A stretch of 64,000 nt of DNA from Paucibacter sp. DJ2R-2 (GTDB lineage Bacteria > Pseudomonadota > Gammaproteobacteria > Burkholderiales > Burkholderiaceae_C). The position numbers were made by a program, and so were the translations under genes. The notes below the pieces were generated by a model. It searched no databases, had not been told where the DNA came from, and was given only the letters and a program-made list of their open reading frames with translations. This document shows, piece by piece, positions 24,311 through 41,471 of the stretch. The DNA is taken from the NCBI RefSeq assembly GCF_025717675.1, contig NZ_JAJIRT010000008.1, positions 1-64,000 on the forward strand, given 5' to 3'. The first letter of the stretch is position 1, and the number at the start of each line of letters is the position of its first letter.

Positions 24311-25060
24311 TCAGGCCAGCCGCAACCCCCACACCGGCCCGCCATCATCAATCCGCACATGGCTGGAATCGGCAAAGCCCAGCGAGGCGGCAGCGGCCGC
24401 TGCAACCAAGCCGCTGGCCCCCACCTGCCCCACCGCAGCCTGCGCCTCGGCGCTCAGGAAGGACAGGTACAAGGTCTGCCGTGGCAGCAGCGCGGCGAGG
24501 TGGCTGCGCCACGCCTCGCCCAGCTGCACCTCAGCGGCCACTGGGTCGCCGCTGTAGAAGTTCGCGCCCAGGCCCAGCCAGAAGGGTGAGGCGCCCGACG
24601 CATCGCGCGGGCCGGCCAGCTCCAGCACCAGCTGGCGGCCATAACGATCACGCTGGGCGGAGATGCGCTGGAGTGCGGCGTCGATGAGCTGAGCCAGGGC
24701 GGCCTGCTGTTGCGAAGCGTCCAGCTCCGGCGCGCAAGCCAGATCGGCCAGCTCGCTCTCGCCCGTGTGGTCATTGCCCAGCAGCAAGGTGGGCTGGGCG
24801 CGGAACAAGCCCAGCTCGGCGGCGGCGTGGACGATCTGGCCCAGGTGGTAGCTGTAGCGCGGCAGGGGCGCCAGGCCCAGGCGCTCGACCAGGCGCAAGC
24901 AGGCCAGGGGCCGGTCATCCGCCGGATCCGCCAGCAGCAGCCATTGCTCGGCCGGTGCGTCCAGCTGCAGGGCGGCACCGGTCTGGTTGCGCCAGCCGGC
25001 GGCGCGAATCTGGGCCGCGTCTTCGGGTCGCCAGGAACGCAAGCTTCCGATCTCGGTCAT
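24311..25060 (-). CDS. arginine N-succinyltransferase, second subunit (AruG-like)
   Basis: 249 aa. Shares the AstA GNAT-like layout with its neighbour: LRSWRPEDAAQIRAAG at the start, YSYHLGQIVHAAAELGLF, then FWLGLGANFYSG and the C-terminal SHVRIDDGGPVWGLRL. In pseudomonads the enzyme is a heteromer of AruF and AruG, and two adjacent genes here suggest the same. It catalyses succinyl-CoA plus arginine to N2-succinylarginine, the first step of the AST pathway. Its ATG overlaps the stop of the upstream subunit as ATGA. No astB, astC, astD or astE follows. Confidence 0.85.
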   Translation of the reverse strand: MTEIGSLRSWRPEDAAQIRAAGWRNQTGAALQLDAPAEQWLLLADPADDRPLACLRLVERLGLAPLPRYSYHLGQIVHAAAELGLFRAQPTLLLGNDHTGESELADLACAPELDASQQQAALAQLIDAALQRISAQRDRYGRQLVLELAGPRDASGASPFWLGLGANFYSGDPVAAEVQLGEAWRSHLAALLPRQTLYLSFLSAEAQAAVGQVGASGLVAAAAAASLGFADSSHVRIDDGGPVWGLRLA

Positions 25061-26133
25061 GACCGGCTCCTTTCCAGGGCGTCGGGCTGCAGCGGCGTCA
25101 CCCACAGGCTGTGGCCCTCGCTCAGGCCCAGGCGTTGCACGGCTTCATGCCCGGGCGCCAGGGCCTGGGCGGCCGGCGGCAGCTCGGCCAGCACGGCACG
25201 AAAACCGGGCCGGGCGCTGTTGACGGCCAGGTGCCAGACCGGCTGGCCCAGGGCCATGGCATCGGCTTGCACGGCCAGCTCGCGGGCGTGGCGCACGCTG
25301 CGCAGCAGATGCAGGCTGGCCTCGACCGTGGGGCCGCCGTCGAAGATGTCGATATAGCTGTCGGCGTCGAAGCCCTCGTCTTGAAGGATGGAAAACGGCA
25401 ACTCGCCGACCGGGTGCAACTGGCCGATGGCGAACTGCGCAGCCTCGGGAAGCAAGGGCACATAGATGGGCGACTGCGGCATCAGGTCGGCGATGAAGGA
25501 TTTGCTGCGCCCGCCGGTGACGGCCTCGGCCTGCGGATAGTCCATGTCAAAGAAGCGCCGGCCCACGGCGTCCCAGAAAGGGCTTTGCCCGGCCTCGTCG
25601 GCGAGGCCGGGGCTCTCGGCCGCGATGCGGTCATTGAAGCGCTCCAGATGGCGCAGGATGAACAACAAGCGGGCGCGCGAGAGCAGCTGCGGCGCCGGGC
25701 CGTCCGCATAGGCTGGGTCGATGTAGAAAGAGGTCAGCAAGGTGTAGCCGGTCAGGTCGTGGCACAGATGCAAGGTGTGCAGGCGCCGGCTCACGCCCAG
25801 GGCGGCGCTGGCGTGGACCACGAACTCATTGCGGTAGCTGTAGAAGCGGTCGTGAAAACCAGCGCTGGCGGCGATGCCGCTGCAGCCCACCACCTGGGCG
25901 CGCGTCAGGTCTTCCAACACGAAGAGATAACGCTCTTCACCGCTGGCATCGTCGGCGCTGGCAAAGGACTCGATCGAATGCGCGATGCGCTGGCGCAGCT
26001 GCTCACGGTCATGCGGCAGCGAGCCGATGCCATGCGCGCTGGCCGCGGCAATGCGCTCCAGCGCCGCCAGGTCGGACAGCGCCACCGGGCGCAAGACAAG
26101 CTCGCGCAGATCGTGCGGCTCAGTGACATTCAT
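25057..26133 (-). CDS. astA: arginine N-succinyltransferase, AstA/AruF-type subunit
   Basis: 358 aa, matching AstA length. Diagnostic blocks: LVLRPVALSDLAALERIA at the N-terminus, HLCHDLTGYTLLTSFYIDP, SPFWDAVGRRFFDMDY, FIADLMPQSPIYVPLLP, and DIFDGGPTVEA. It opens the arginine succinyltransferase route, giving glutamate and succinate from arginine. Start and stop both overlap neighbours (ATGA with the regulator upstream, ATGA with the second subunit downstream), so all three are made from one coupled message. Confidence 0.93.
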   Translation of the reverse strand: MNVTEPHDLRELVLRPVALSDLAALERIAAASAHGIGSLPHDREQLRQRIAHSIESFASADDASGEERYLFVLEDLTRAQVVGCSGIAASAGFHDRFYSYRNEFVVHASAALGVSRRLHTLHLCHDLTGYTLLTSFYIDPAYADGPAPQLLSRARLLFILRHLERFNDRIAAESPGLADEAGQSPFWDAVGRRFFDMDYPQAEAVTGGRSKSFIADLMPQSPIYVPLLPEAAQFAIGQLHPVGELPFSILQDEGFDADSYIDIFDGGPTVEASLHLLRSVRHARELAVQADAMALGQPVWHLAVNSARPGFRAVLAELPPAAQALAPGHEAVQRLGLSEGHSLWVTPLQPDALERSRS

Positions 26134-27203
26134 GGGGGGCTCTCTCCTGCCGGGCGGCGCCAGGCCGCGGCTCGCTGGCTGCGCTCATCGCGCGGCGTCT
26201 TGTCGAAATGGGCTTTGTAGGCGTTTGAAAAATGCGGGCCCGAGGAAAACCCGCAGCTCAGGCCGATTTGCAGAATCGATTGGCTGCCCTGCTGCAGCAG
26301 GCGGCGCGCTCGGTTCAGGCGCAGCTCCAAGTAGTAGCGCGAGGGCAGCGCGTCGAGATGCTGTTTGAACAAGCGCTCCAGCTGGCGCCGTGACACGCCC
26401 ACCAGGCGCGCCACCTCCTCGGTCGGCAGGGGCTCGGCCAGATTGGCCTCCATCAGGCTCAGGGCTTCGGCCAGCTTGGGGCTGCCGCCGCGCTGTTCGG
26501 CCACGGCGCGGCGCTGCCGCTCGTCGCGGCCGCGCGCGCGCTCCAGGCCCAGGGCCAGGGTCAGGTCTTGCGCGAAGCGCTCACCATGGCGCCGGCCCAG
26601 CCAGGCGACCATCAGGTCGAGGCTGGCGCTGCCGCCGGCGCAGCTCATGCGGCTGGCTTCGGCGTTCATCTCCCAGACCTTGTCGCTCCAGACCACCTCG
26701 GGCCAATCCTCTTGCAAGGCATCGATCCAGGCGCCGTTGACCGTGGCGCGCTGGCCGCTGAGCAGGCCGGCCTCGGCCAGCAAGGCGCTGCCGCCGTCCA
26801 CACCGGCCAGGGCCACGCCAGCGGCTGCCTGGGCCTGCAGCGCGAGCAAGAGCGCCGCATCGGCAGGCAGCGACTCGCCGCTGAACACCAACAGCAAATC
26901 CCAGGCTCGCTCGGGCGACAGCAGGGGCAGCGCCGCCGCCCAGGCTTGCGGGCTCAAAAGCTGGCCGCAGCAGGCGGCAGGCGCACCGTCTAAAGAGAGC
27001 AGCTGAACCTCGTAGCGCGCCTCTGGCTGCAAGCCATTGGCCGCCTGCAAGGCCTCCAGCACGCCGGCCAAGGCCAGCAGCGAAGCACCGGGCATGACGA
27101 GCAAGCCACAGCGCCGCAGCGCCGCCGTGGCGGCACCGGTTTCGACTGGCAAGGCGGGATAGGCAGCGCTGTTCACCGCCTGGACTGTAAGGCAGCTCAG
27201 CAT
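26130..27203 (-). CDS. GlxA/ArgR-type AraC-family transcriptional regulator
   Basis: 357 aa. A DJ-1/PfpI-like amidase fold (about 1-200) precedes a C-terminal AraC DNA-binding domain (about 250-345) with two helix-turn-helices (VSRRQLERLFKQHL and GLSCGFSSGPHFSNAYK). This is the architecture of Pseudomonas ArgR, the arginine-responsive activator of aru and aot genes. The ATG at 27203 is preferred over 27275, whose extension is not conserved. Coupling to astA by ATGA overlap makes an arginine-sensing role very likely; the ligand is inferred from context. Confidence 0.9.
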   Translation of the reverse strand: MLSCLTVQAVNSAAYPALPVETGAATAALRRCGLLVMPGASLLALAGVLEALQAANGLQPEARYEVQLLSLDGAPAACCGQLLSPQAWAAALPLLSPERAWDLLLVFSGESLPADAALLLALQAQAAAGVALAGVDGGSALLAEAGLLSGQRATVNGAWIDALQEDWPEVVWSDKVWEMNAEASRMSCAGGSASLDLMVAWLGRRHGERFAQDLTLALGLERARGRDERQRRAVAEQRGGSPKLAEALSLMEANLAEPLPTEEVARLVGVSRRQLERLFKQHLDALPSRYYLELRLNRARRLLQQGSQSILQIGLSCGFSSGPHFSNAYKAHFDKTPRDERSQRAAAWRRPAGESPP

Positions 27204-27452
27204 GGCAAATCTCGCTGGCCACGCCGGGATGCTGGCGAACCACGCTGCACGCGCTGGGAGGGCTGGAACATCCAAGCCGGCATGGGGTCTTGGCAGCGGC
27301 GCCGGAGCGAAATGTCACGATGGCGCACACTCAGGGCCTGCCTTCCAAGTTTGGCCCTCAGAATGAAAGCATCGACAGGCTGAGCTGCGCGCGGCGCGAC
27401 AAGCCTGGCCTGTGACGCACCCTCTCCGCAAGCCTCACCCCTCGGACGCTCC

Positions 27453-28355
27453 ATGCCCCAAGCGAAATCAGCGAACAAAGCCAGGCCGCTCGTGCTGCCT
27501 GCCGGCCTCGAACTGGAGGCCGGTTTCGCCCTGATCACGCGCCACTGCTTGCGCCAGATCCGCGCCAATGAGGCTGGCCTGAAGTTCAGCAGCGACCCCG
27601 AGTTTGTGCACCAGATCCGCGTCGGCTTGCGCCGTCTGCGTTCAGCCTTGAGTCTGTTCAAGCCCTGGATCCCGCTGCCGCAGGCTCTGGCCCATGATCT
27701 CCGCTGGTTGGGCCAGCGTTTGGGCGCGGTGCGCGATGCCGAGGTCCTGGCCCACACGACCTTGCCCGCCCTGGCGCTGGCCTGCGCCGGAGTCGAGGAC
27801 CTGGGCAAGCTGCAAGACGCCGCAGCGGGCCTGGCCCAAAAGCGGCGTCGCAAAGCCGTGCAGGCACTGGACTCGGATCGATACCAGCACCTGCTGGCCA
27901 ATCTGCAGCGCTGGCTCAAGCGGCGCGGCTGGCGGGCTGAATCGCCCAGGCCCGAGGAGCTGGGCATGCCGCTGGAGGCTGCGGCACAAACAATGCTGAC
28001 GCTGCGCAGCCAGAAGCTGAGCCAGCAGATCCAGAGCTTGCCGGACCCTGCCCGCGCAGAGGACTGGCACCGGCTACGCATTGCAGTCAAGAAGCTTCGT
28101 TATGCGCATGGGTTCTTCCAGTCCTTTGCTATTGCAAGAGCTGCCGGCCAGCCGACGCAGCTCAGCGCGCTGCAGGACTTGCTGGGCCAGTTCAACGATG
28201 CGGACGTGGGGCGCGAGCTGCTGCTGCATCTGGACCCGAAGCAAGGCCGGCCAGCCGCCTTTGCCAGCGGCGTCTTGTGGGCGCAGTCGCAGCAGCGCAT
28301 CCACATGGTCACGGCCTTGCTGCCGGCCTTCGTCACCGGCCCGCCCGCCCCCTGA
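27453..28355 (+). CDS. CHAD domain protein
   Basis: 300 aa, one CHAD domain from about residue 20 to 290. Conserved histidine/basic helices are present: FVHQIRVGLRRLRSALSLF, LRWLGQRLGAVRDAEVL, and DWHRLRIAVKKLRYAHGFF. CHAD domains bind polyphosphate and have been found on polymer granules. The usual CYTH partner is absent. It lies between the arginine-catabolism operon and the cyanophycin genes, divergent from the regulator; whether it belongs to that system is unknown. Confidence 0.92.
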   Translation: MPQAKSANKARPLVLPAGLELEAGFALITRHCLRQIRANEAGLKFSSDPEFVHQIRVGLRRLRSALSLFKPWIPLPQALAHDLRWLGQRLGAVRDAEVLAHTTLPALALACAGVEDLGKLQDAAAGLAQKRRRKAVQALDSDRYQHLLANLQRWLKRRGWRAESPRPEELGMPLEAAAQTMLTLRSQKLSQQIQSLPDPARAEDWHRLRIAVKKLRYAHGFFQSFAIARAAGQPTQLSALQDLLGQFNDADVGRELLLHLDPKQGRPAAFASGVLWAQSQQRIHMVTALLPAFVTGPPAP

Positions 28356-28384
28356 CGCCATGACAGGCAATCAAGCAGCCTGCT

Positions 28385-29827
28385 TCACTGCCATGACATG
28401 GAACTCGCCAAGGCCAGCAAGCCCAGGGCCAACACCAGATAAGCCAGCTGCAAAGGGATCATCCAGCGCGCCCATTTGGTCCACGGGATGCCGGCCAGGG
28501 CCAGCACGCCGACCGTGATGCCCGAGGTCGGGATGACCGGCGTGGTCAGCTCACCGAACTGAAAGGCCAGCACAGCGGTCTGGCGGCTCACGCCCACCAG
28601 ATCGGCCAGCGGCGCCATCACCGGCATGGTCAGGGCGGCCTGGCCGGTGCCGGAGTGGATGAAGAAGTTGATCACCGACTGGATCAAGAACATCTTCTGC
28701 GCCGAAAAGATGGGGCTGCTCGATTCCACCAGGGGCACCAGGCTGTGCAGCACGGTGTCGATGATGTGGCCGTCGCGCATCAGCACCACGGTGGCCTTGG
28801 CCAGGGCGATCACCAGGGCGGTGCTGACCAGGTCCTTGGCGCCTTGCATGAAGGCGGCGACGAAGTCTTCGGCAGACAGCCGCGCCACCAAGCCCACGGC
28901 CAGGGCCATCACCAGGAACAGGGCCGCGATCTCCTCGATGTACCAGCCAAAGCGCACCACGCCGACGATCATGGACAGCAAGGTCAGCACGAACAGGCCC
29001 AGCACCAATTTGTGGCGTGGCTGCAGGCCCTCGAACTGCTCGAAGCTGCTGAGGTCCAGATGGCGGCGGCGCTCCAGGTCTTGCTCGTAGCAGGGGCTCA
29101 AGCGCGGATCGCGCTGCACGCGGGCCGCGTACCACATCAAAAAGGCGATGGTCACCGTGGTGAAGATCAGCCAGCAGACCAGGCGGTAGCCCAGGCCCGA
29201 GAACATGGGCACACCGGCAATGTTCTGGGCCACACCGACATTGAAGGGGTTGAGAAAGGCCGTGGCAAAGCCGATCTGCGAGCCGACGAAGGGAATCGCC
29301 ACGCCGACGATGCTGTCGTACTTCAGCGCCAGGGCCAGGGGGATGAAGATCAGCACAAAGGGAATCGCCTCCTCGGCCATGCCGAAGGTGGCGCCGCCCA
29401 GGGAGAACAGGCCAACGAAGAGGGGGATCAGGCCGGCGCGCACCAGAGCCGAGTGCCGATGGGCGCGGGCCACGGACTTGATCATCGCGTCGATGGCCTC
29501 GCTGCGCTGAAGCACCGAGAACGCGCCGCCAACGATGAGCACAAAGCCAATGATCAGGGCCGCCTCAACGAAACCCTTGATCGGCGCCGTCATCAAGGCC
29601 ACCAGACCTTGCGGCTGGCTGGGGATGTGGCGGAAGGAATCGGCCACGATCACCTTTTTGCCATCAACCAGCTCCGTCTGGTACTGGCCGCCGGGCAGCA
29701 CCCAGGTGGCCAGGGCGATCAGGGCCAGCAGGGCGAACAGCAGGACAAAGGTGTTGGGAAACTTGAGAGGCTTGGCGGGGGTGGCGGTGGTGCTTGCGGG
29801 GTTCGCAGGGGTGATGGGCGTGGACAT
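28385..29827 (-). CDS. YfcC-family membrane carrier (Dcu/ArcD-like)
   Basis: 480 aa with about 12 hydrophobic segments. It opens with PKFPNTFVLLFAL-like sequence and LPGGQY, has repeated re-entrant motifs (GGATFGMAEEAIPFVLIF and FFIHSGTGQAALTMPVM), and ends in a hydrophobic span: the YfcC/C4-dicarboxylate-carrier-like layout. Relatives are proposed to move basic amino acids or small peptides. A GTG at 29839 overlapping the cphZ stop is an alternative start. It is the last gene behind the CphZ-like hydrolase, so import of arginine, aspartate or beta-Asp-Arg is a reasonable guess. Confidence 0.88.
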   Translation of the reverse strand: MSTPITPANPASTTATPAKPLKFPNTFVLLFALLALIALATWVLPGGQYQTELVDGKKVIVADSFRHIPSQPQGLVALMTAPIKGFVEAALIIGFVLIVGGAFSVLQRSEAIDAMIKSVARAHRHSALVRAGLIPLFVGLFSLGGATFGMAEEAIPFVLIFIPLALALKYDSIVGVAIPFVGSQIGFATAFLNPFNVGVAQNIAGVPMFSGLGYRLVCWLIFTTVTIAFLMWYAARVQRDPRLSPCYEQDLERRRHLDLSSFEQFEGLQPRHKLVLGLFVLTLLSMIVGVVRFGWYIEEIAALFLVMALAVGLVARLSAEDFVAAFMQGAKDLVSTALVIALAKATVVLMRDGHIIDTVLHSLVPLVESSSPIFSAQKMFLIQSVINFFIHSGTGQAALTMPVMAPLADLVGVSRQTAVLAFQFGELTTPVIPTSGITVGVLALAGIPWTKWARWMIPLQLAYLVLALGLLALASSMSWQ

Positions 29828-29835
29828 GGCCGGGC

Positions 29836-30957
29836 TCACATGGAAAGCAGCTTGCCGCTGCGGAAAGGAATGGCGCCTGCAATCTTGCAGACCCGCATGC
29901 CGGCGCTGGCATAACGCCGAGACACACGGGCAAACATCAGGCCCGCGGCGCGGGCACAGAGCAGGCTGCGCTGCTCGCTCAAAGGATTGATCAGCTCGGC
30001 CACGGCCTCGCCAGCGGCGACGCGATCACCGGGCGCCTTGAGGAAGACCAGCACACCAGCATGGGGCGCGACGATGGGCTCCACCGCCTCCAGCGCCGTG
30101 GCCGGGCAAGCCAGGCCCTCCAGCGCGGCAGGCGGGCGGTCCGTCACATCGCCGGTGTCGCGCAGGAACTCGATCAGGGCGGCGGCATCGGCCGCGGCCA
30201 GCTCGTGCGAAACCTCGGTCTCGCCGCGCAGCTCCACCGTGGCAGCCAGGCAGGCCAGGGGCACAGGCGTGGCCGGGCCGAAATGCTCGGCCAGCTCCCA
30301 CCAGTGCCGGGCCAGGGACTCATCGAAGGGGTCGTCCCCCGACTCGCGCGAGATCAGATAGGCCTGGGCGCCCAGGCGCGCAGCCAGTGGCGCCAGTGCC
30401 GAGGCCAGGGGCGTGCCGGTGTAGACATGGAGCACGGCCTGGTTGTCGCAATGCAGGTCCAGCACCACATCGGCGTCCAGGGCCAGGCTTTGCAGCAGGC
30501 GCTTGAGCGCCTCGGTCTCGGTGGCGGCGGGCCGCTCGGCCAGCAGGGCCTGGGCGGCCGCGCGCACCGTGCGCACATTGGCGGCAGCATCGGCACCCAG
30601 CTGACCCTGCAGGCGCGGCAGCAGCGCCGGGGTCAGGTGTTGATAGCCGCGGTTGAAATTGACGCCGGTGCTGAGGTCGAAGCGACCGAAGGACGTGCCC
30701 TGCAGCTCCTGGGCCAGACCGATGGGGTTGGCCAGAGGCAGCAGCACGATTTCGCCGGGCAGCTGGCCGGCCACCTCCAGCTCCAGCAATCGTTCTTTCA
30801 AATGCTGGGCCACCAACATGGGCGGCACCTCGTCGGCATGGAGCGAGGCCTGGATGTAGACCTTGCGGCCGCTGTGGCCCGCACCGAAGTGCAGGCTGTG
30901 CAGCTGGCGGGCGCTGCCGGCATGGGCCGGCGGTAGGGCGTGAACGTGGCGGCGCAT
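29836..30957 (-). CDS. cphZ: CphZ/AotO-like cyanophycin dipeptide hydrolase (M14-type)
   Basis: 373 aa of the succinylglutamate desuccinylase/aspartoacylase superfamily. Zinc ligands are visible: His40 and Glu43 in SLHADE, His169 in DLHC; the catalytic Glu lies in VELRGE (about 242). The blocks GRKVYIQASLHADE and LANPIGLAQELQG closely recall AotO of the Pseudomonas aot operon, now known as CphZ, which splits beta-Asp-Arg into Asp and Arg. No signal peptide, so it acts in the cytoplasm. Position between a secreted cyanophycinase and an arginine pathway supports this over succinylglutamate desuccinylation, but an AstE role cannot be fully excluded. Confidence 0.85.
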   Translation of the reverse strand: MRRHVHALPPAHAGSARQLHSLHFGAGHSGRKVYIQASLHADEVPPMLVAQHLKERLLELEVAGQLPGEIVLLPLANPIGLAQELQGTSFGRFDLSTGVNFNRGYQHLTPALLPRLQGQLGADAAANVRTVRAAAQALLAERPAATETEALKRLLQSLALDADVVLDLHCDNQAVLHVYTGTPLASALAPLAARLGAQAYLISRESGDDPFDESLARHWWELAEHFGPATPVPLACLAATVELRGETEVSHELAAADAAALIEFLRDTGDVTDRPPAALEGLACPATALEAVEPIVAPHAGVLVFLKAPGDRVAAGEAVAELINPLSEQRSLLCARAAGLMFARVSRRYASAGMRVCKIAGAIPFRSGKLLSM

Positions 30958-31238: not shown

Positions 31239-32570
31239 TCAAGGGATGGGGCTGATGGCCTTGTAGAAAGGTTGCTGCACCCGCACTGGCAGCACATCGA
31301 GGCGCAAATTCAGAACGGTGTAGTCCTCGCCGCCCATGGTGCCGGTGAACCAGGCCAGGCTGTCGGGGCCCTTGTAGAGGCGGAACTCAAAGCCCAGCTC
31401 GCTGTCGATCCCAGCGCTGGCTTGAGCGGCGGCCGAGCGCGGCCCAGCAAAAGCCAGGCCCAGCAAGTCCGGAAAGGGGCTGTCGATCAGCTGGGCCATG
31501 GCGTTGGCGATCGTGTTGTCGCCCAACATGTCCATCAGGAAAGGCTGCTGGGTGAAAAAGGGTTTGAAGTTCGGCGCGCGCGGGTCGATCTTGTGGCCGG
31601 CGCGCTTGGCGGCCGAGGGCGTGGTCTCGCCGCTGCCCAGGTGATGGCGGTCGCCGCGGTCGAGAAAACTCAGGCGCACGCCGCGGATGTTGAAGGCGGG
31701 CAGGCGCGCATCGCGGCTGGCCTCGCTCAAGTCCACCAGCAGCACGCCGCGCGCGCCGATCACCTCCAGCGCCTCGCCCTTGATCACCGCCGCGCTGTTC
31801 TCTTCCACGCCCAGGCCCAGGCGATAGCCCTCGGCCTGCATCAGGGGCAGAAGGCGGCCGATGCGGCCACGCTTGAGGAAGTGCTGGTCAATGAAGAGAT
31901 GGGGGCCGACGAAGCCCAGGCCGCGGTCCACCTCCTGGCCGCGGCGCAGCTGGCCTTTGAGCACCTTGAGCGAGTCCTGCGCGTCGCGGAACATGGTGCT
32001 GCTCATGATGGCCGCGCCGGCGCTGGTACCGGCCACCACACCGCCGCGCCGGTAGAGCGCCCAGATGGCATCGAGCATGGGCGTGGGCTGGCCGCCGGGC
32101 TGCAGGCTGTCGACGATCAACTCTTGCGCGCCGCCCGAGAAGAACACGCCTTGCGCCGCACTCACCTTGGCCAGCAAGGCCGGGTCTCGCACGGCAGCGG
32201 CCACATCGCTGCCGGCCAGGCGCGGCGCCACGGGGATGTGCTCGGCGCGTGCGCCCTGGCGCTGCAAGGCTTCGATGATTTGCCCGGCGCTGCGCTCGGG
32301 GTTGGCGGCGGCCGTGGCGAACACGGCGAAGCGCGCGCCGGGGCCGCCGGCCTCGTCGACGATGCGCTTCCAGACCGCGTCGTTGTCGTACTTCAGGGCG
32401 CCGCCGATGACGATGGCCGTGCCGCGCGGCGCGGTCTCGACTGAGGTCTGCGCTTGTGCATGGCTGGGCGTGGCGAAGAGGCCAGCGCTGGCCAAAAGCG
32501 AGGCCAGAAGAAAGCAACGGCGGCCTGGGGCGCGAGGGCCCAGTGCGATGGAGTGGCTTGGGGTTTGCAT
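31239..32570 (-). CDS. secreted cyanophycinase (peptidase S51), copy 1
   Basis: 443 aa. A signal peptide occupies about 1-40 (core FLLASLLASAGLF, cleavage near AHA-QA). The S51 domain follows: IVIGGALKYDN, FFSGGAQELIVDSL, and the nucleophile elbow VAGTSAGAAIMS with Ser183. Cyanophycinase cuts cyanophycin into beta-Asp-Arg dipeptides; the leader makes this an extracytoplasmic CphE/CphI-type enzyme for using external polymer. The C-terminal 100 residues are an added beta-rich region. It is divergent from TonB receptor 1 across 286 bases. Confidence 0.92.
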   Translation of the reverse strand: MQTPSHSIALGPRAPGRRCFLLASLLASAGLFATPSHAQAQTSVETAPRGTAIVIGGALKYDNDAVWKRIVDEAGGPGARFAVFATAAANPERSAGQIIEALQRQGARAEHIPVAPRLAGSDVAAAVRDPALLAKVSAAQGVFFSGGAQELIVDSLQPGGQPTPMLDAIWALYRRGGVVAGTSAGAAIMSSTMFRDAQDSLKVLKGQLRRGQEVDRGLGFVGPHLFIDQHFLKRGRIGRLLPLMQAEGYRLGLGVEENSAAVIKGEALEVIGARGVLLVDLSEASRDARLPAFNIRGVRLSFLDRGDRHHLGSGETTPSAAKRAGHKIDPRAPNFKPFFTQQPFLMDMLGDNTIANAMAQLIDSPFPDLLGLAFAGPRSAAAQASAGIDSELGFEFRLYKGPDSLAWFTGTMGGEDYTVLNLRLDVLPVRVQQPFYKAISPIP

Positions 32571-32702
32571 GGCGCCAGTCTGTCAGCGCGCGCGCTGCAA
32601 AACCAGCGGGTTGGCCCGCTGCAGAGCCTGCAAAGGACGCAAAGCGCAAGTGCGTGTCGCATCCATGCAAGCGCGTTTGCCCCCTGTTCATCGAGGTTTG
32701 CG

Positions 32703-32781
32703 CGCTTGCGACATGCATTTACACGCAAGCGACCGAGGCGCCAAAACCCCATAGGCAAGTCATGTGGGCCACTTCTAGAGT
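32703..32781 (+). promoter_or_regulatory. putative promoter/operator region of TonB receptor 1
   Basis: A perfect 8-bp inverted repeat CGCTTGCG / CGCAAGCG (32703-32710, 32724-32731) with 13-base spacing is followed by CCCCATAGGC (32747) and CTTCTAGAGT (32772). The second receptor gene has CCCCTATGGC and CTTCCTAGACT with exactly the same 29-base distance from CCCC to TAGA and the same GCGAC just upstream. TAGAGT may be a -10 box; no good -35 is seen, which fits an activator-dependent promoter. Operator assignment is inference. Confidence 0.5.
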
Positions 32782-32856: not shown

Positions 32857-35604
32857 ATGATCAAACCCCGCAGCCCCCATCGATTTCAAACCCAGCGTCT
32901 GGCCCAAGCCGCGATGCTGCTGCTCGGCAGCCAGCTCTTGAGCACCGCCCAGGCCCAGGAAGCCAAACTGGAGCGCGTGGAAGTCACCGGCACCAGCATC
33001 AAGCGCCTGGAGGGCGAGACCGCCTTGCCGGTGCAGACCCTCAAGCGCAGCGACATCGACAAGACCGGCGCCACCACGGCGGCCGAGATCATGAAGTCCA
33101 TCAGCGGCAATACGGCCGGCCTGACAGACGGCGCCTCCATCACCGACAGCACCGGCGGCCAACGCGGCTTCAACGGCGCGAACCTGCGCGGCATCGGCGT
33201 CTCCAGCACCCTGGTGCTGCTGAACGGCCGACGCATGGCCAATTTCGCCTCGCCCGGCGACAACTCGGGCGTGGACCTGAACAACATCCCGGCCGGCGCC
33301 ATCGAGCGGGTGGAAATCCTCAAGGACGGCGCCTCGGCCATCTACGGCACCGACGCCATCGGCGGCGTCATCAACTTCATCACCCGCAAGGACTACCGCG
33401 GTGCTGATGTGAACGTCTACGCCTCGCGCACGCAAGAGGGTGGCGCCGAAAAGACCGCCGCCTCGCTGGGCGGTGGCTTTGGTGACCTGGCCAAGGACCG
33501 CTTCAATGTCTTCGGCGTGATCGACGCGCAAAAGCTCGGCGCCCTGCGCAGCAGCGAGCGCGACTTCCTGAAGGAGCGCCCGCTGGCCAGCACCCTGCCC
33601 TTCTACATGAGCAGCCGCACCTACCCCGGCAACATCCGCCTGGCCAGCCGGGCGGCCGCACGCAAGGTGCAGCTCGATGCGCTCAATGCCGCCGGCTTCA
33701 ACTTCAACGGCAAACCGCTGACCCAGCGCACCATCAACCTCTCGGCCCCGGCCTGCAATCCGCCGGCCACGGTCTACGCGCCCGACAACCTGTCCGAGGC
33801 CTGCAGCTTCGACTACATGCAGGACACCGAGCTCTACCCCGAATCCGAGAAGCTCGCTTTCCTGGGCCGCGGCGTCTTTCAGCTGAACGAGCAGCACCAG
33901 CTGTTTGCTGAACTGCTGAAGAGCAAGACCACGACGCAGTACGTGGCCAGCCCCAACCCGATCGAAATCACCGCGGTGCCGACCAGCGCCATCAACCCCT
34001 TCCTGAGCAAGCCCCTGCCCTTCGGCGGCAATGTGGACGTCCGCCAGCGCGTGACCGAAGCCGGCAACCGGACCAATGAAGTGACCAGCGATGCCGAGCG
34101 CCTGGTGGTTGGCGCCAGCGGCAGCCTGCCCCTGTTCGGCGGCTGGGACTATGACATCGCCCTGAACCGCGCCGTCAACCGTTCGACCGACGCGATCAAG
34201 GACGGCTACTTCCTCTACAACGAGTTCGTGGCCGGCGTGCGCACCGGCAAGATCAACCCCTTCGGCCCTTCGCCGCAGGCCGGCAAGGACTTGCTGAACA
34301 GCATCCGCGTGCAGGATGAATCGCGCCGCTCCAAGGGCACGACCACCACCCTGGACTTCAAACTGAGCGGTAGCCTGGCCCAGTTGGAAGGCGGCGATCT
34401 GGGCTTGGCCCTGGGCGCCGAGCTGCGCCGTGAGGTGACCGAGTTCACCCCCTCGGCCCTGCTGCTGACCAACAACATCCAGGGCGACCGCAGCTCGCGC
34501 GGTGACGCGCCGGTGGCCAGCAGCAACAGCCGCAAGGTGGGCGCCGTGTTCGCTGAGCTGAATGCACCGCTGAGCAAGGCGCTGGAGCTGCAAGCCGCAC
34601 TGCGCTATGACAAATACAGCGGCGTCGGTGACACCCTGAACCCCAAGCTCGGCGTGCGTTGGCAGCCGAGCAAGCAGCTGGTGCTGCGCGGCTCGGCCGG
34701 CACCGGCTTCCGGGCGCCCACCATCACCGAACTGACCCGCCCGACCTCATTTGGCAGCAGCTCGGCCTTCCTGACCGACCCCGGCTGCGTGGCCCAGGGC
34801 TTTGCCGTCGCCGACTGCACGGACCAATGGCGCGTCGAGCGCCGCAGCAACCCGAACCTCAAGCCCGAGAAGTCCAAACAGGCCTCCTTCGGCGTGGTCT
34901 TCGAGGCCAGCAAGGACGCCACCGCCAGCCTGGACTACTGGATGATCCGCAAGACCGATGTCATCAGCGACCTCTCGGAACAGGTGATCCTGGGCAACCT
35001 GCCCAAGTACGGCAAGGACTACGTCAAGCGTGACGAGTTCGGCGAGTTCATCGACACCATCCTGCTCAAGAAGGACAATCAGGGCGAGCTGCGCACCTCG
35101 GGCCTGGACTTGGAGATGACGCTTCGCCAGGCCACCGAAGGCTGGGGCCGCTTCACTGCCTCGCTGAGCGGCACCTATGTGCTCAAGTACGAGCGCCAGC
35201 CCGGCGCCGGCGAGCCCTTCATGAACAACGCCGGCCAGTTCCTGAGTGACCAGGTGATCCAGAAATGGCGCCACCGCCTGTCGGTGGACTGGGACCTGGG
35301 CCCTTACGGCCTGACCCTGGGCAACACCTATTACTCGGGCTACCGCGACCACAACACCGCCTTCAACCCCAACACCAGCCAACTGCTGCCGGCCCGCAGC
35401 GTGCAGGCCTACTCGCTGTGGGACCTGTCGGGCTCCTGGCGCATCAACAAGCAGCTCAAGCTGCGCGCCGGCATCCAGAACCTGCTGGACACGCAGCCGC
35501 CGTTCTCCAACCAGGGCTACTACTTCCTCGCCACCTATGACCCGACCTACACCGACCCGCGCGGCCGCAACTTCTACATGAGCCTGAACTACAGCTTCCG
35601 CTGA
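32857..35604 (+). CDS. TonB-dependent outer-membrane receptor 1
   Basis: 915 aa. Signal peptide about 1-33. The plug domain begins with LERVEVTGTSIKRLEGETALPVQ, has LLNGRRMANFASPGDNSGVDLNNIP, and DGASAIYGTDAIGGVINFIT; a C-terminal 22-strand barrel ends in an aromatic residue and Arg (SLNYSFR). No STN signalling domain, so not a sigma/anti-sigma receptor. Divergent from cyanophycinase 1 and paired in the same way as copy 2. It probably imports cyanophycin fragments or dipeptides across the outer membrane; the ligand is inferred from the neighbours only. Confidence 0.93.
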   Translation: MIKPRSPHRFQTQRLAQAAMLLLGSQLLSTAQAQEAKLERVEVTGTSIKRLEGETALPVQTLKRSDIDKTGATTAAEIMKSISGNTAGLTDGASITDSTGGQRGFNGANLRGIGVSSTLVLLNGRRMANFASPGDNSGVDLNNIPAGAIERVEILKDGASAIYGTDAIGGVINFITRKDYRGADVNVYASRTQEGGAEKTAASLGGGFGDLAKDRFNVFGVIDAQKLGALRSSERDFLKERPLASTLPFYMSSRTYPGNIRLASRAAARKVQLDALNAAGFNFNGKPLTQRTINLSAPACNPPATVYAPDNLSEACSFDYMQDTELYPESEKLAFLGRGVFQLNEQHQLFAELLKSKTTTQYVASPNPIEITAVPTSAINPFLSKPLPFGGNVDVRQRVTEAGNRTNEVTSDAERLVVGASGSLPLFGGWDYDIALNRAVNRSTDAIKDGYFLYNEFVAGVRTGKINPFGPSPQAGKDLLNSIRVQDESRRSKGTTTTLDFKLSGSLAQLEGGDLGLALGAELRREVTEFTPSALLLTNNIQGDRSSRGDAPVASSNSRKVGAVFAELNAPLSKALELQAALRYDKYSGVGDTLNPKLGVRWQPSKQLVLRGSAGTGFRAPTITELTRPTSFGSSSAFLTDPGCVAQGFAVADCTDQWRVERRSNPNLKPEKSKQASFGVVFEASKDATASLDYWMIRKTDVISDLSEQVILGNLPKYGKDYVKRDEFGEFIDTILLKKDNQGELRTSGLDLEMTLRQATEGWGRFTASLSGTYVLKYERQPGAGEPFMNNAGQFLSDQVIQKWRHRLSVDWDLGPYGLTLGNTYYSGYRDHNTAFNPNTSQLLPARSVQAYSLWDLSGSWRINKQLKLRAGIQNLLDTQPPFSNQGYYFLATYDPTYTDPRGRNFYMSLNYSFR

Positions 35605-35626
35605 AGCCGCCAGGCCCCAAAACAAA

Positions 35627-35663: not shown

Positions 35664-35684
35664 CATGCTCGCGGCTGGCCTGTT

Positions 35685-37199
35685 TTACTTGCTGGGGCCG
35701 TCGCCCCGCTCGGGTGCCGGCCCAGGGTTGCGGTCGGGGCCAGGCCAGGCGCTGTACAGCGGCTGGGGCATGCGCACCGGGGTCACGTCGAGGTAGAGGT
35801 TGACGACGGTGAACTCCTCGCCGCCCCACTCCTCGGTGCTCCAGCCATAACTGCCCTTGCCCTTGTACAAGCGGAACAGGAAGCCGAGCTCGGCCACCGG
35901 GTCGCCCGGCTTGGGCAGCACGTCGAAGGACAGGCCACGCACCTCGTTGCGGCTGCTGTCGATCAGATAGGTCATGGCATTGGTGATGGTGGAGTCACCG
36001 AGCATGTCCAGATCGAAGCGCTCTTCGGTGAAATAAGGCTTGAAGTCCGGCGCCATGTGATCGTGCTTGGCACCGCGCAGCTTGATAGGCGCGGGCGTGG
36101 TCTGCCGGGTCTTGAGGTTGTAACGGTCGCCCTGGTCCAGATAGCTCAGGCGAGCGCTGGTCACATTGAAAGCGCCCAGGGTCGGGTCGGTCTTCACATC
36201 GGTCAAGTCCACCAGCAAGGCACCCTTGTCGCCGATCACCTCGACCTCATCACCATGCACCACGGCGGCCGAGTTCTCCTCCACGCCCAGGCCCAGCTTG
36301 TAGCCCTTGGCCATCATCAGCGGGATCATGCGACCGAAGCGGCCGCGCTTGAGGAAATGCTGGTCGACAAACAAATCAGGCCCGACAAAGCCCAGGCCGC
36401 GGTCGATCTGCTTGCCCTCGACCCATTTGCCTTTCATGATGTTGATGACGCTGGGCGCGTCGCGGAACATCACCGTGCTCATGATGGCGGCGCCGGCCGA
36501 GGTACCGGCCACCACGCCGCCGCGGCGGTAGACGTCCCAGATGGCCTCCAGCATGGGCGTGCTGTGGCCGCCCGGCATTAGCACATCGACGATGCGCTCT
36601 TGCGAGCCGCCGGTAAAAAACACACCGCGGGCGTTCTTGACCTTGGCGATCAGGGACGGGTCGCGCACCACCTTGCTCAGGTCCACCCAGCTGAACTTGG
36701 GCGCCACCGGCAGGGCTTCGGCCACAGCGCCGCGTTTTTGCAGCATGTCGACGGCCGTCTTGGCGCTGGCCTCGGGATCCTCGGCCGCCGTGCCAAAGAC
36801 GACAAAACGCGCGCCTTTGCCGCCGGCCAATTGGACGATGCGGCCCCAGACGTCTTCGTTGTCGGCCTTCAATGCACCACCGATGGGCACCGCATAGCCC
36901 TTGATGGCGCCCTCACCCGCAGCCAGAGGGCCGAGGCCCGAGGCGTTGCTGCTCGGGTTGCTACTGCCTGCCGTAGAACTGGCGGGTTTGGCCGGCACCG
37001 GCGAGGGCGCATGCACGCCCTTGACCGGCGTGGTCGGCGGCGGCGGCGTGGCGCCCAGCACCGTGCCCGCAGGTCCAAAGGTGCCGGGTTTCAAGGTGTG
37101 CACGGTGCCGCCCTGGGCTTGGGCGCCCAGGCTCGCCGTGACCAGCAGACCGGCTGCCAGGGTGGAAATCAAAAAATCTGAAACGTGCTTGGTGTTCAT
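35685..37199 (-). CDS. secreted cyanophycinase (peptidase S51), copy 2
   Basis: 504 aa from the ATG at 37199. Signal peptide about 1-28 (LISTLAAGLLVTASLGAQA). A Pro/Ser/Ala-rich linker (about 48-92), absent from copy 1, precedes the S51 domain: YAVPIGGALKADNEDVW, FFTGGSQERIVDVL, VAGTSAGAAIMS with nucleophile Ser234, and DQHFLKRGRFGRMIPLM. The C-terminal beta-rich region matches copy 1. The linker may tether or space the catalytic domain outside the cell. Divergent from receptor 2 across 338 bases. Probably a duplicate of copy 1 that has diverged. Confidence 0.92.
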   Translation of the reverse strand: MNTKHVSDFLISTLAAGLLVTASLGAQAQGGTVHTLKPGTFGPAGTVLGATPPPPTTPVKGVHAPSPVPAKPASSTAGSSNPSSNASGLGPLAAGEGAIKGYAVPIGGALKADNEDVWGRIVQLAGGKGARFVVFGTAAEDPEASAKTAVDMLQKRGAVAEALPVAPKFSWVDLSKVVRDPSLIAKVKNARGVFFTGGSQERIVDVLMPGGHSTPMLEAIWDVYRRGGVVAGTSAGAAIMSTVMFRDAPSVINIMKGKWVEGKQIDRGLGFVGPDLFVDQHFLKRGRFGRMIPLMMAKGYKLGLGVEENSAAVVHGDEVEVIGDKGALLVDLTDVKTDPTLGAFNVTSARLSYLDQGDRYNLKTRQTTPAPIKLRGAKHDHMAPDFKPYFTEERFDLDMLGDSTITNAMTYLIDSSRNEVRGLSFDVLPKPGDPVAELGFLFRLYKGKGSYGWSTEEWGGEEFTVVNLYLDVTPVRMPQPLYSAWPGPDRNPGPAPERGDGPSK

Positions 37200-37402
37200 G
37201 GCCTGGGAGACTGTGTGGATTGGCCACCGCAAACAGGGACGGAGTCAGCGGCGGCACAGACGACGACAAATGCGACGGCGGAACGAATCATGGCACGGCC
37301 GCACACAGGGCTGCCGCACCGGCCAGTCTGAGGCCAGGCCCAAGGCACTTGGAACGCTATGCGAACGCTCCGCGAAAGATACGCACCCTGAGTTGCGCTG
37401 AT

Positions 37403-37454: not shown

Positions 37455-37537
37455 GGTGCGGAAACCTCATTGGAAGACCGGTCGCCACCCGCCTCGGCGC
37501 GCGCCCCGGCCCCCTCACACCCCCGGGAGAAGTACAA

Positions 37538-40312
37538 ATGACCCAGCCCCGCGCTTTCACCCCCACCCCCGTTCTGCGCGCCACTGCCCTGGCAGCCCTG
37601 ATGGCCACCGCCGGCCTGGCCAGCAAGCTGGCCCATGCCCAGGAAGCACCCAGCACCTTGAACCGCGTCGAAGTGACCGGTTCGGCCATCAAGCGCCTGG
37701 AGTCGGAGACCGCCCTGCCGGTGCAGGTGATCACGCGGGCTGACATTGTCAAGGCCGGCATCACGACGGCCGCCGAATTGGTGGCCAGCCTCAGCGCGGC
37801 CAGCAACAGCCTGACCGACGGTGTCTCCATCGGCACCGGCGGCTTCAAGGACCAGATGGGCTTCAACTCAGCCAATCTGCGTGGCCTGGGCACCTCCTCC
37901 ACCCTGGTGCTGCTGAATGGCCGGCGCATGGCCAACTTCGCCTCGCCCGGTGACGACTCGGGCGTGGACCTGAACACCATCCCCATGGCCGCCATCCAAC
38001 GCGTGGAGGTGCTGCTGGACGGCGCCTCGGCCATTTACGGCACCGACGCCATCGGCGGCGTCGTCAACTTCATCACCCGCAAGGACTACCAAGGCGTGCA
38101 ACTGGACGCTTATGCCGGCGCCAGCAAGGAAGGCGGCGCGGGCAAGCGCAGTGCCTCGCTGGCCGGCGGCACGGGCGATGTCGTCCGGGACGGTTTCAAT
38201 CTCTTTGGTGTGCTGGATCTGCAGCGCACCGACGCCTTGAGCACCTCGCAGCGCCAGTTCATCTCCGACCTCAAGATCCCCGAACGCCTGCCCCACCTGC
38301 TGTCCTCCGCTGGTTTTCCGGCCAATATCCGCCTCAGCCGCGACCAACGCGACTACCTGAAGGATCAAGGCTTCAAGATCAATGGCAAGACCATCAGCGG
38401 CCGAACCATCAATCTCAGCGCACCGGCCTGCCAGCCGCCGCACACCCTGTACCTGCCCGAGGGCATCGGCGGCGTGGATGGCTGCACCTACGATTTCATG
38501 CGTGACATCGAGCTCTACCCCAAGACCGACAAGGCCAGCTTCCTGGGGCGTGGCGTGTTCCAGCTCGACAGCAGCACCCAGGTGTTTGTGGAAACGGCGC
38601 TGACGCGATCCAAGAGCTGGTACGTGGGCACCTCCAATCGCATCGACGGTGAAGTCGACGTGGCCCGCATCCCGGCCTTGGCAGCCACCGGCCTGGCTGA
38701 CGCCTTGCCCGACGACCGCAGCATCACCGTGCGCACCCGCCTGCTCGACGCCGGCAAGCGCGCCAGCGAGCTGACCAGCACCGGCCAGCGCGTGGTGCTG
38801 GGCCTGACCGGCAGCACGGCCGGCTGGGACTACGACCTGGCTTACAACCGCAGCACCAACAAGGTGGCCGACCGCGATGTGGCCGGCTACCTGCTTTACG
38901 ACAAGACCATGGCTGCCTTTGCCGACGGCACCATCAACCCCTTTGGCACACAAAGCGACAAGGGCCTGGCCTTCCTGCGCAACAACCAGATCAACGAGGA
39001 AGTGCGCAGCGCCAAGGGCACGATGGAGGTGTTCGACATCAAGGGCACACGTGCCCTGACCCAGCTGGCTGGCGGCGAGATGGCCCTGGCCATCGGCGCC
39101 GAAGTGCGGCGTGAGAAGGGAAGCTCGGCCGCCTCGGCTCTGCTGCTTTCCGACAACATCGTCGGCGACAGCACGCCCGGCGATGCCCAGTTCACCAACA
39201 GCTCGCGCAAGGTCTGGGCCGTGTACGGCGAGTTGAACGCCCCGGTCAGCAAAGAGCTGGAAGTGCAGCTGGCCCTGCGCCACGACCACTACGACGTGGT
39301 CGGATCCACCACCAACCCCAAGATCGGCCTGCGCTACACACCGAGCAAGCAGGTCGTCGTGCGTGCATCGGCCGGCACCGGCTTCCGCGCACCCTCGCTG
39401 AACGACCTCTACCGCCCGGTCAAGACCGGCCAGACCGCCGTGCTGCCCGACCCGGTCTGCATGAAGGAAAACGACAACGACCTCTCCACCTGCGCCGACT
39501 TCTGGGAGACCCGCACCTACGCCAATCCCAAGCTCAAGCCCGAGACCTCCAAACAGTTCAGCTTCGGCCTCGTGATCGAGCCACATCCACAGTGGACCGT
39601 CAGCCTGGACTACTGGAACATCGCCAAGAAGAACGTGATCAGCACCATCGGTGACGATGTGATCCTCGGCAATCTGTCCAAGTACGAAAGCCTGGTGCAC
39701 CGCCTGAACGAGAACGAAGGCTTGGCCGGCTGCGACTACGACGAAGAAGACTCGACCATCTGTTTCATCGAGTTGCGCAAGGAAAACCGGGGTCGCCAGC
39801 GCGCCTCGGGCCTGGACATCAGCATCGACTTGAAGGGTTTGAAGAGCAGCGTCGGCGAGTTCGGCGTGCGCCTGGCCGGCACGGTGGTGCTGAAGTCGCA
39901 GAAGCAGACCGGCTTCGGCGACGACTACATCAGCAACCTGGGCAAGTTCGTCACCGACGGCGTGGTGCAACGCTGGCGCCATCGCCTGACCCTGGACTGG
40001 ACGCAAGGCGCTTACAGCCTGGCCTTGAGCAACACCTACTCGAGCGCCTACACCGACCAGAACTCGGCCATCGACACCAATTCCGGCACCGTGGTGGCGC
40101 CCAACAAGGTCAAGGCCTATTCCCTGTGGGACCTCTCCGGTGCCTGGAACGCGACGAAAGACCTGACCCTGCGCGCCGGTGTAAAGAACCTGCTGAACAC
40201 CACGCCGCCCTACTCCAACCAGGCCTACTTCTTCCTGTCCGGCTATGACCCGAGCTACACCGACCCGCGCGGCCGCTTCGCTTACCTGAGCGCCCAGTAC
40301 CAGTTCCGCTGA
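37538..40312 (+). CDS. TonB-dependent outer-membrane receptor 2
   Basis: 924 aa, a clear paralogue of receptor 1. Signal peptide about 1-35; plug with LNRVEVTGSAIKRLESETALPVQ, LLNGRRMANFASPGDDSGVDLN, DGASAIYGTDAIGGVVNFITRKDY; barrel ending SAQYQFR. Extracellular loops differ most from copy 1, including an acidic stretch (GCDYDEEDSTICF) that is a candidate contact for arginine-rich ligand. SD GGGAGAAG lies upstream of the ATG. The serine hydrolase gene follows after 16 bases and is likely co-transcribed. Confidence 0.93.
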   Translation: MTQPRAFTPTPVLRATALAALMATAGLASKLAHAQEAPSTLNRVEVTGSAIKRLESETALPVQVITRADIVKAGITTAAELVASLSAASNSLTDGVSIGTGGFKDQMGFNSANLRGLGTSSTLVLLNGRRMANFASPGDDSGVDLNTIPMAAIQRVEVLLDGASAIYGTDAIGGVVNFITRKDYQGVQLDAYAGASKEGGAGKRSASLAGGTGDVVRDGFNLFGVLDLQRTDALSTSQRQFISDLKIPERLPHLLSSAGFPANIRLSRDQRDYLKDQGFKINGKTISGRTINLSAPACQPPHTLYLPEGIGGVDGCTYDFMRDIELYPKTDKASFLGRGVFQLDSSTQVFVETALTRSKSWYVGTSNRIDGEVDVARIPALAATGLADALPDDRSITVRTRLLDAGKRASELTSTGQRVVLGLTGSTAGWDYDLAYNRSTNKVADRDVAGYLLYDKTMAAFADGTINPFGTQSDKGLAFLRNNQINEEVRSAKGTMEVFDIKGTRALTQLAGGEMALAIGAEVRREKGSSAASALLLSDNIVGDSTPGDAQFTNSSRKVWAVYGELNAPVSKELEVQLALRHDHYDVVGSTTNPKIGLRYTPSKQVVVRASAGTGFRAPSLNDLYRPVKTGQTAVLPDPVCMKENDNDLSTCADFWETRTYANPKLKPETSKQFSFGLVIEPHPQWTVSLDYWNIAKKNVISTIGDDVILGNLSKYESLVHRLNENEGLAGCDYDEEDSTICFIELRKENRGRQRASGLDISIDLKGLKSSVGEFGVRLAGTVVLKSQKQTGFGDDYISNLGKFVTDGVVQRWRHRLTLDWTQGAYSLALSNTYSSAYTDQNSAIDTNSGTVVAPNKVKAYSLWDLSGAWNATKDLTLRAGVKNLLNTTPPYSNQAYFFLSGYDPSYTDPRGRFAYLSAQYQFR

Positions 40313-40328
40313 TCCAGGTCGCACAGCC

Positions 40329-41471
40329 ATGAAGCGCCGGCACTGCCTGGGTGGCGCGGCCGGCGCCCTGCTGGCCGGCCCGGGGCTCGCCTGGGCTCAG
40401 AGCGATGCGGCCCTGTCTGCGCTGCAATTGGCGCAGCGCCTGGAGCAGCGCCAGCGCGAGCTGAACGAGCAGCTGCCGGACAGCATGCGGCGCCTGGGCG
40501 TGCCCGGCCTGTCTTTGCAACTGCTGCGTCACGGCGAACCCAGCCAGGCCTGGCATCTGGGGTGGCGCGAACGCTCGGAGGACGGCGCGCCGGTGGACGC
40601 CGGCACGGTGTTCGAATGCGCGTCCATGAGCAAGCCGGTGTTTGCGTTTCTGCTGTTGCAGCAGGTGCAGCGCGGCCGCCTGGGCTTGGACCAGCCCATC
40701 CTGGACTTCTACCCCGAACGTTTCAGCCCAGCGCAGCCTGCGCAGGCGCGCATCACCGCGCGCCAACTCCTCAGCCACAGCTCGGGCCTGCCGAATTGGC
40801 GCGAAGGCGATGAGAACACCGGCCCCCTGCCCCTGAGCTTTGCGCCCGGCGAGGGCTTTCAGTATTCGGGCGAAGGCTATTTTTATCTGCAAAGAGCGCT
40901 TGAGCATCTGCTGGGCGAGCCCTTGCAGACAACGGCCGAACGCGAGCTGTTTCAGCCCCTGGGCATGAGCAAGAGCAGCTTTGTGCTGAGCCCAGCGATA
41001 GAAGCCCAGCGAGCGCGCGGCCACGCCGAAGATGGCCGCGCCCTGCCCTGGAGCCGTTACGAACGGGCCAATGCCGCCTACACGCTCTACACCACGGCGG
41101 GCGACTACAGCCGCTTTCTGGCTCATTTGCTGCGCCCAAGGCAATCGGGCCCGGGCCTGCTCAGCGCCGAGCTGCGCACCGAAATGCTGGCCGCGCAGGC
41201 GGTCGCTACCGACCGCCAACCCCTGGACCGCGCCGGGCAAGCCCAGGCACTCAAAGGCCAGCCGGTCAAGGTCCACTGGGGCCTGGGCTGGATCCTCAAT
41301 CACATGGCCGATGGCAGCCGGGTGGTCTATCACACTGGCACCAACAGCAGTGGCTTTCGCGCCTTTTGCCAGTTCAACCCTTCACAGGGCAGCGGCATGG
41401 TCTTTCTGAGCAACAGCCTGGCCGGCCATCAGCTCTGGCAGCCCATGATCAAGCGCTGGGGCGACCTTTAA
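40329..41471 (+). CDS. secreted serine hydrolase, beta-lactamase class C/DD-peptidase fold
   Basis: 380 aa. Signal peptide about 1-23 (CLGGAAGALLAGPGLAWA). The SxxK motif is ASMSKPVF (Ser about 99). A Tyr motif YSGEGYFYLQ lies in the middle, and HTGTNSSGF stands where class C enzymes have KTG. Members include esterases, D-aminopeptidases and peptidases. Position right behind receptor 2 suggests a periplasmic role in trimming cyanophycin products, for example an isopeptide or dipeptide hydrolase, but no residue proves that. Confidence 0.88.
   Translation: MKRRHCLGGAAGALLAGPGLAWAQSDAALSALQLAQRLEQRQRELNEQLPDSMRRLGVPGLSLQLLRHGEPSQAWHLGWRERSEDGAPVDAGTVFECASMSKPVFAFLLLQQVQRGRLGLDQPILDFYPERFSPAQPAQARITARQLLSHSSGLPNWREGDENTGPLPLSFAPGEGFQYSGEGYFYLQRALEHLLGEPLQTTAERELFQPLGMSKSSFVLSPAIEAQRARGHAEDGRALPWSRYERANAAYTLYTTAGDYSRFLAHLLRPRQSGPGLLSAELRTEMLAAQAVATDRQPLDRAGQAQALKGQPVKVHWGLGWILNHMADGSRVVYHTGTNSSGFRAFCQFNPSQGSGMVFLSNSLAGHQLWQPMIKRWGDL

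Follow-up and report, generated by a model that had tools for sequence, protein, structure and literature searches.

Organisation of the locus

The window analysed here is a stretch of 64,000 nucleotides (contig NZ_JAJIRT010000008.1, positions 1 to 64,000) from the genome of Paucibacter sp. DJ2R-2 (5.80 Mb, reported completeness 100%). It carries a gene cluster (Table 1) with two S51 family cyanophycinases (S51a and S51b), two TonB-dependent receptors (TBDR1 and TBDR2), a CphZ-like hydrolase, a YfcC-type carrier, an AraC family regulator and a pair of AstA-like proteins, which is probably a receptor-coupled operon for cyanophycin scavenging within the arginine regulon. Each receptor gene is divergent from an S51 gene of its own. 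The genes of S51a, CphZ, YfcC, AraC, AstA1 and AstA2 form a series on the minus strand, and the 4-base overlaps of CphZ/YfcC, AraC/AstA1 and AstA1/AstA2 (the start of AstA2 overlaps the stop of AstA1) suggest translational coupling.

A first-pass annotation, made from the letters of the window alone, had listed the S51 pair, the receptors, the CphZ-like protein, YfcC, the AstA pair, the regulator and the serine hydrolase, and this list stands with its positions. The CHAD-domain gene, of what we take to be a polyphosphate-linked family, was absent from it. Because yfcC and araC are only 66 bases apart in the closest relative (L004), a gap too small for this gene, it looks like a local insertion into the operon.

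Table 1. Genes and regulatory sites of the cyanophycinase/receptor locus, in window coordinates
Feature	Position	Strand	Remarks
AstA2	24311-25060	-	Short, diverged arginine/ornithine succinyltransferase-like subunit; Pfam AstA 117 bits
AstA1	25057-26133	-	Arginine/ornithine succinyltransferase-like subunit; AstA 369 bits; TIGR03243 subfamily above cut-off
AraC-family regulator	26130-27275	-	Nearest NCBIfam model GbdR, 237 bits, below cut-off of 480
CHAD-domain gene	27453-28355	+	Opposite strand, between AraC and YfcC genes
YfcC/DcuC-family inner-membrane carrier	28385-29839	-	NCBIfam YfcC 374.7, below cut-off of 500
CphZ-like beta-Asp-Arg hydrolase (predicted), AstE/AspA fold	29836-30957	-	Sequence match
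S51a, predicted exported CphE-class cyanophycinase	31239-32570	-	TIGR02069
ArgR-type box TGTCGCATCCATGCAA	32655-32670	+	S51a/TBDR1 promoter; motif match
ArgR-type box TGTCGCAAGCGCGCAA, inverted	32698-32713	-	S51a/TBDR1 promoter; motif match
TBDR1, TonB-dependent receptor	32857-35604	+	Divergent from S51a
S51b, predicted exported CphE-class cyanophycinase	35685-37232	-	TIGR02069; likely ATG start near 37199
TBDR2, TonB-dependent receptor	37538-40312	+	Divergent from S51b
Exported beta-lactamase-fold serine hydrolase	40329-41471	+	Behind TBDR2; weakly linked member

Cyanophycinases and conservation of the locus

Both S51 proteins pass the TIGR02069 cyanophycinase model (132.7 and 131.4 bits, cut-off 126.6), and the Ser-His-Glu triad and CphB pocket residues, as given in the cited passages of PMC3235067, are invariant in all 16 S51 proteins aligned. 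Model score, pocket residues and fold agree with their earlier naming as cyanophycinases; by sequence they belong to the CphE class and are predicted to release beta-Asp-Arg.

Relatives with S51b were found at 40 loci, in Roseateles, Paucibacter, Pelomonas and Ideonella among others (Burkholderiales where named; one is named Methylotenera). A TBDR2-type gene adjoins S51b in 35 of these 40 named loci, the exceptions being L005, L029 and L036, on short or cut contigs, and L023 and L043, which have no such gene; CphZ lies within the retrieved flank in eight. Among 299 genomes of the family, S51 (TIGR02069) was found in 70, CphZ, by an alignment-based search, in 86 and the receptor clade in 41. 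The S51 places were split by TIGR02069 score into a CphE class (115-150 bits, n=69), where CphZ lies within 10 kb in 42 places and a receptor within 3 kb in 45, and a CphB-like class (at least 200 bits, n=21), where neither neighbour was found at these distances in any place. None of the five places at 150-200 bits and 4 of the 29 below 115 bits have either neighbour. CphZ is carried by 48 of the 49 CphE-class genomes against 38 of the 250 others, and is not enriched in the genomes of the class of at least 200 bits (6/21).

The layout was tabulated for 68 of the 69 CphE-class places (G075:C27 left out); since counts per place inflate loci with two S51 genes, they were recounted as 63 distinct loci from 48 genomes, several of which stop at contig ends. 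A receptor is present in 43 of the 63, divergent and upstream in 42, and CphZ in 39, downstream on the same strand in 38; AraC (31/31), AstA (30/30) and YfcC (13/13) are likewise on the same strand downstream of S51. The full gene set occurs in 22 loci and the serine hydrolase in eight. The recurrence of the same arrangement across the family exceeds chance, and S51 keeps the company of receptors, CphZ, carrier, AraC and AstA; a conserved co-occurrence of this kind was the check that the first-pass annotation had named.

Both S51 proteins of the window have signal-like N-termini, as expected of a CphE enzyme, and a crude rule finds them at 50 of the 57 linked places of the CphE class. Such a signal is not diagnostic of CphE, because 10 of the 20 CphB-like-core enzymes examined (of 21) carry one too, often twin-arginine-like; exported canonical CphB is also present in the family, and the use of this class as a cytoplasmic control was dropped. 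S51a and S51b are the only S51 proteins above the TIGR02069 cut-off in their genome.

Other S51 arrangements were also seen. The same genome has a second S51/receptor neighbourhood (G000:C1:835k-845k, L047:6924-16426), which encodes two long S51 proteins (655 and 610 aa) below the cyanophycinase cut-off, an RpiR-type regulator, a DDAH-like guanidino-group hydrolase (PF19420) and a TonB receptor 37% like TBDR1. A 792-aa open frame (G000:C29:345609-347987, L048:7609-9987) has a sub-cut-off cyanophycinase match of 104.8 bits, and a gene 76% like it lies directly behind the operon AstA genes in L064. Pelomonas-type loci (L018, L024, L028 and similar) have S51b and an S51a-like gene in tandem behind a single receptor, without a nearby CphZ.

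TonB-dependent receptors

The likeness to a polysaccharide-utilisation locus, drawn in the first-pass annotation, holds as an analogy and does not extend to a SusC/SusD pair: the receptors reach 42.5 and 22.5 bits with the SusC/RagA model, far under its cut-off of 368, and a Pfam scan of 20 window proteins gave no SusD family. Neither receptor is above the cut-off of any ligand-specific model. They resemble receptors for haem, B12 and siderophores in a generic way, and a PDB sequence search with a receptor returned generic receptors only (Colicin I, enterobactin, B12), with no hint of the ligand.

The receptor clade is confined to S51-positive genomes (two receptor candidates were scored per genome, and up to 12 in S51-positive genomes, giving the same 41), and of 60 receptor hits 44 are no more than 3 kb away from S51 and 16 are farther off. 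For the eight genomes with two divergent pairs, S51-based and receptor-based pairing were concordant in 28 of 28 genome comparisons, which are not independent of each other, and the distance matrices of S51 and receptor, computed for 41 pairs, correlate with r 0.66, a value reached in none of 2000 permutations. These sequences indicate that each receptor has been passed on jointly with its enzyme, and this suggests different forms of the substrate for the two pairs. Their cargo, as we infer, would be pieces of cyanophycin.

CphZ and the inner-membrane carriers

The CphZ-like protein matches 8ein, presumably the CphZ structure, with 255 bits, and the metal/catalytic residues H40, E43, H169 and E242 are invariant in all nine CphZ-type sequences. 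This closeness to 8ein agrees with the dipeptide hydrolase proposed earlier, and the enzyme is CphZ-like with a predicted specificity for beta-Asp-Arg. Its neighbouring carrier varies: of 39 CphZ-linked loci, 13 have YfcC and 21 have components of an arginine-type ABC importer, while five have neither and none has both (Fisher p 1e-6). In the ABC version exemplified by L050, the gene order is CphE-SBP-Q-M-CphZ-ATPase-AraC-AstA, the substrate-binding protein (SBP) being above the TIGR01096 cut-off and accompanied by HisQ-, HisM- and HisP-like proteins. YfcC in the window occupies the place of this importer. That two unrelated carriers replace each other at a single position speaks for beta-Asp-Arg or arginine as the cargo of both. 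Another contig of the same genome (L069) carries an SBP-Q-M-CphZ-ATPase operon without S51 or receptor.

Regulation and the AstA pair

ArgR of Pseudomonas is an AraC-family protein with the box consensus TGTCGCN6GNAA, according to the cited passages of PMC10963909. Of the 26 divergent S51/receptor regions (some 5' coding sequence included) with AraC in the locus, from 24 genomes and 16 genera, 25 contain the motif TGTCGCN8AA; of 15 regions without AraC one does, in a locus that ends at a contig end just past CphZ. The 26 regions hold 33 such sites; shuffled sequences average 0.34 (at most three in 200 shuffles), and the background across all loci retrieved is 0.05 per kb. The full consensus has 28 sites in 22 of the 26 regions (shuffle mean 0.12). 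The box points toward the receptor in 24 of the 26 regions, and eight have a second, inverted box. A motif-blind dyad count ranked the same box first, in up to 23 of 26 regions compared with shuffle maxima of 10-12. The ArgR-like regulator of the first-pass annotation is thus supported by boxes in promoters of AraC-linked loci, which in the window means the pair in the S51a/TBDR1 promoter only, and the window AraC protein appears ArgR-like, as judged from these co-occurring boxes. As for a regulator box in S51b/TBDR2 promoters, dyads were present in 9 of 14 regions, with no clear excess over shuffle maxima of 8, 6 and 6.

The start of arginine catabolism, formerly ascribed to AstA, could not be upheld. 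No match to AstB or AstE was found in the genome, its 10 AstD-like matches are all below cut-off (best 285.5, cut-off 579.3), and AstB is missing from all 48 locus-bearing genomes searched (41 that carry the receptor clade, plus seven more). AstA1 and AstA2 cannot serve the classical AST pathway in this genome and would either act otherwise or feed enzymes that the AstB, AstD and AstE models do not see.

Synthesis of cyanophycin in the same lineage

The first-pass annotation had derived the polymer from other cells, as no cyanophycin synthetase is encoded in the window. This does not hold: another contig encodes a synthetase above the TIGR02068 cut-off (961.9 bits, cut-off 850), next to a second CphA-like gene that falls below it, so that the absence of a synthetase from the window is uninformative on the origin of the polymer. 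Tandem cyanophycin synthetase-like genes, the first of them below this cut-off, are found at G000:C1:478850-483638 (L046), with no S51 genes nearby in the family scan. TIGR02068 is above cut-off in all 39 relatives searched (L036 left out) and is matched at E<=1e-200 in 36 of the 41 receptor-bearing family genomes. Because the other five (G050, G179, G182, G263 and G335) have no such match, the operon is retained without own synthesis too.

Proposed mechanism and alternatives

In the cyanophycin scavenging that we consider probable, exported CphE-class enzymes would clip beta-Asp-Arg, and perhaps short oligomers, off cyanophycin outside the cytoplasm, and the two receptors, each with its own cyanophycinase, would carry the released pieces across the outer membrane. 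YfcC, or the arginine-type ABC importer in other genera, would then move the dipeptide or arginine across the inner membrane, and in the cytoplasm CphZ would hydrolyse beta-Asp-Arg to Asp and Arg. Free arginine might act through the AraC/ArgR-type regulator and its boxes to switch on the S51a-TBDR1 promoter, giving a positive feedback.

Several points weigh against this mechanism. Both ligand and activity are predictions; the predicted structure of TBDR2 (mean pLDDT 54.5) is too poor for a structure search; and beta-Asp-Arg fits porins, so that dipeptide uptake may need no receptor. Similar Arg motifs are retained by sub-cut-off S51 proteins elsewhere in the genome, so that such a pocket is not peculiar to the locus. 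Of the 63 CphE-class loci, ten show no receptor or CphZ in the vicinity and 11 only the receptor. S51b/TBDR2 promoters without a linked AraC, that of the window included, have no ArgR box. Owing to the common ancestry of the genomes, their counts are not independent, and the pattern was not seen outside the family: S51 is matched at E<=1e-25 in 12 of 398 genomes of a phylum draw (own genome included), and a close CphE-class protein (447 bits) was found in one of the 397 others, G624 of the same order, whose two retrieved S51 neighbourhoods (L077 and L078) have neither a receptor clade of the window type nor CphZ.

Where the polymer is cut and where it comes from may also be read otherwise. The receptors might import oligomers to be cut by S51 enzymes in the periplasm, in a SusCD-like logic, the dipeptides then crossing via YfcC or the ABC importer. 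Sec/Tat signals by themselves lead to the periplasm, oligomers, being above porin limits, would explain a TonB receptor, and each receptor has an enzyme of its own; we nevertheless regard this version as rather doubtful, since the known CphE enzymes are extracellular (cited passages of PMC3235067) and the polymer is described as insoluble (those of PMC7564069), so that some cutting outside seems needed. It is also conceivable, if not what we would expect, that the main substrate is the lineage's own cyanophycin, freed by lysis of sister cells, rather than the cyanobacterial polymer. The synthetase (CphA1) in the genome itself, in all relatives searched and in most receptor-bearing genomes, and the confinement of above-cut-off S51 proteins to two exported ones, speak for such recycling among kin, but the five genomes without a synthetase match keep the operon and no ArgR box was found in the 18 kb around the genome's own cphA.

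That the locus serves arginine- or isoaspartyl-rich peptides in general, cyanophycin being incidental, would accord with receptors above no ligand-specific cut-off and with boxes and importers that point to arginine rather than to the polymer; it is unlikely, given two matches to the curated cyanophycinase model, the pocket residues and the fold, with a CphZ-type hydrolase in the same operon. Receptors for iron or another ligand, which neighbour S51 by coincidence or through unrelated co-regulation, would suit the generic similarity noted above, but are very improbable given the confinement of the clade to S51-positive genomes, its proximity to S51, the matched paralogues and the shared ArgR-box promoter.

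A more inclusive picture is offered tentatively: a dedicated TonB uptake system for a nitrogen-storage polymer under ArgR-box control, with two receptor-enzyme pairs for different forms of cyanophycin (for instance oligomer lengths, soluble or insoluble, Lys-containing), through which cyanophycin makers without a recognisable above-cut-off cytoplasmic cyanophycinase might regain the stored polymer only via the envelope, from the necromass of kin or of prey. In this picture YfcC would import beta-Asp-Arg or arginine, and the AstA pair would start a non-AST route of arginine.

Comparison with known systems

The order SBP-Q-M-CphZ-ATPase-AraC of the ABC variant is presumably that of aotJQMOP-argR of Pseudomonas aeruginosa, with AotO taken to be CphZ. 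The family operon differs in the divergent receptor and exported cyanophycinase added in front and in AstA behind, and in the window YfcC replaces the ABC importer. Bacteroidetes SusCD loci may be compared by analogy, having an extracellular depolymerase, TonB-driven uptake and an intracellular finishing enzyme; in the locus described here no SusD was matched, the receptors are far from SusC/RagA and the polymer is protein-like. In the passages cited, the aotJQMOP-argR operon is activated by ArgR (PMC12341379), and the ArgR box consensus given in PMC10963909 recurs in the family operon.

An extracellular cyanophycinase, CphE, is known from Pseudomonas anguilliseptica and P. alcaligenes (PMC3235067). 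By the features described, it resembles the window enzymes in export, the GXSXG/His/Glu triad and conserved pocket residues, but the cited passages describe no receptor or operon, and the window enzymes are paired with TonB receptors. The "cyanophycin utilization locus" of the Bacteroidetes strain L21-Spi-D4 (Ben Hania 2017, as cited in PMC10206079) likewise clusters a cyanophycinase, an isoaspartyl dipeptidase (IadA as cited) and a transporter; in the window CphZ takes the place of the dipeptidase, and AraC with ArgR boxes, the AstA pair and a CphA1-bearing lineage are added. In Citromicrobium JLT1363 a TonB-dependent transporter lies beside a cyanophycinase gene, with cyanophycin as the proposed substrate (Tang 2012, PMC3400609), which is the same pairing and predicted substrate as here; that case concerns one genome, and the cited passages give no evidence on CphZ, a carrier, a regulator, a paralogue or the promoter. 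The discovery of CphZ (PNAS 2023) is cited in PMC10206079. In the passages of open-licence literature covered, no description was found of an operon that joins CphZ with ArgR boxes, of two carriers that replace each other, of matched receptor-enzyme pairs or of AstA in the absence of AstB.

Among 903 genomes of beta-proteobacteria with cyanophycin synthetase, a recognisable cyanophycinase was reported in only 2.8% (PMC10206079, section 5). The operon offers a testable answer, for one large group, to how such synthetase-bearing beta-proteobacteria recover the polymer. It also provides a candidate function for YfcC carriers and reveals AstA pairs that are retained without AstB. If the receptors bind pieces of cyanophycin, TonB-driven polymer foraging would extend from sugars to a nitrogen polymer.

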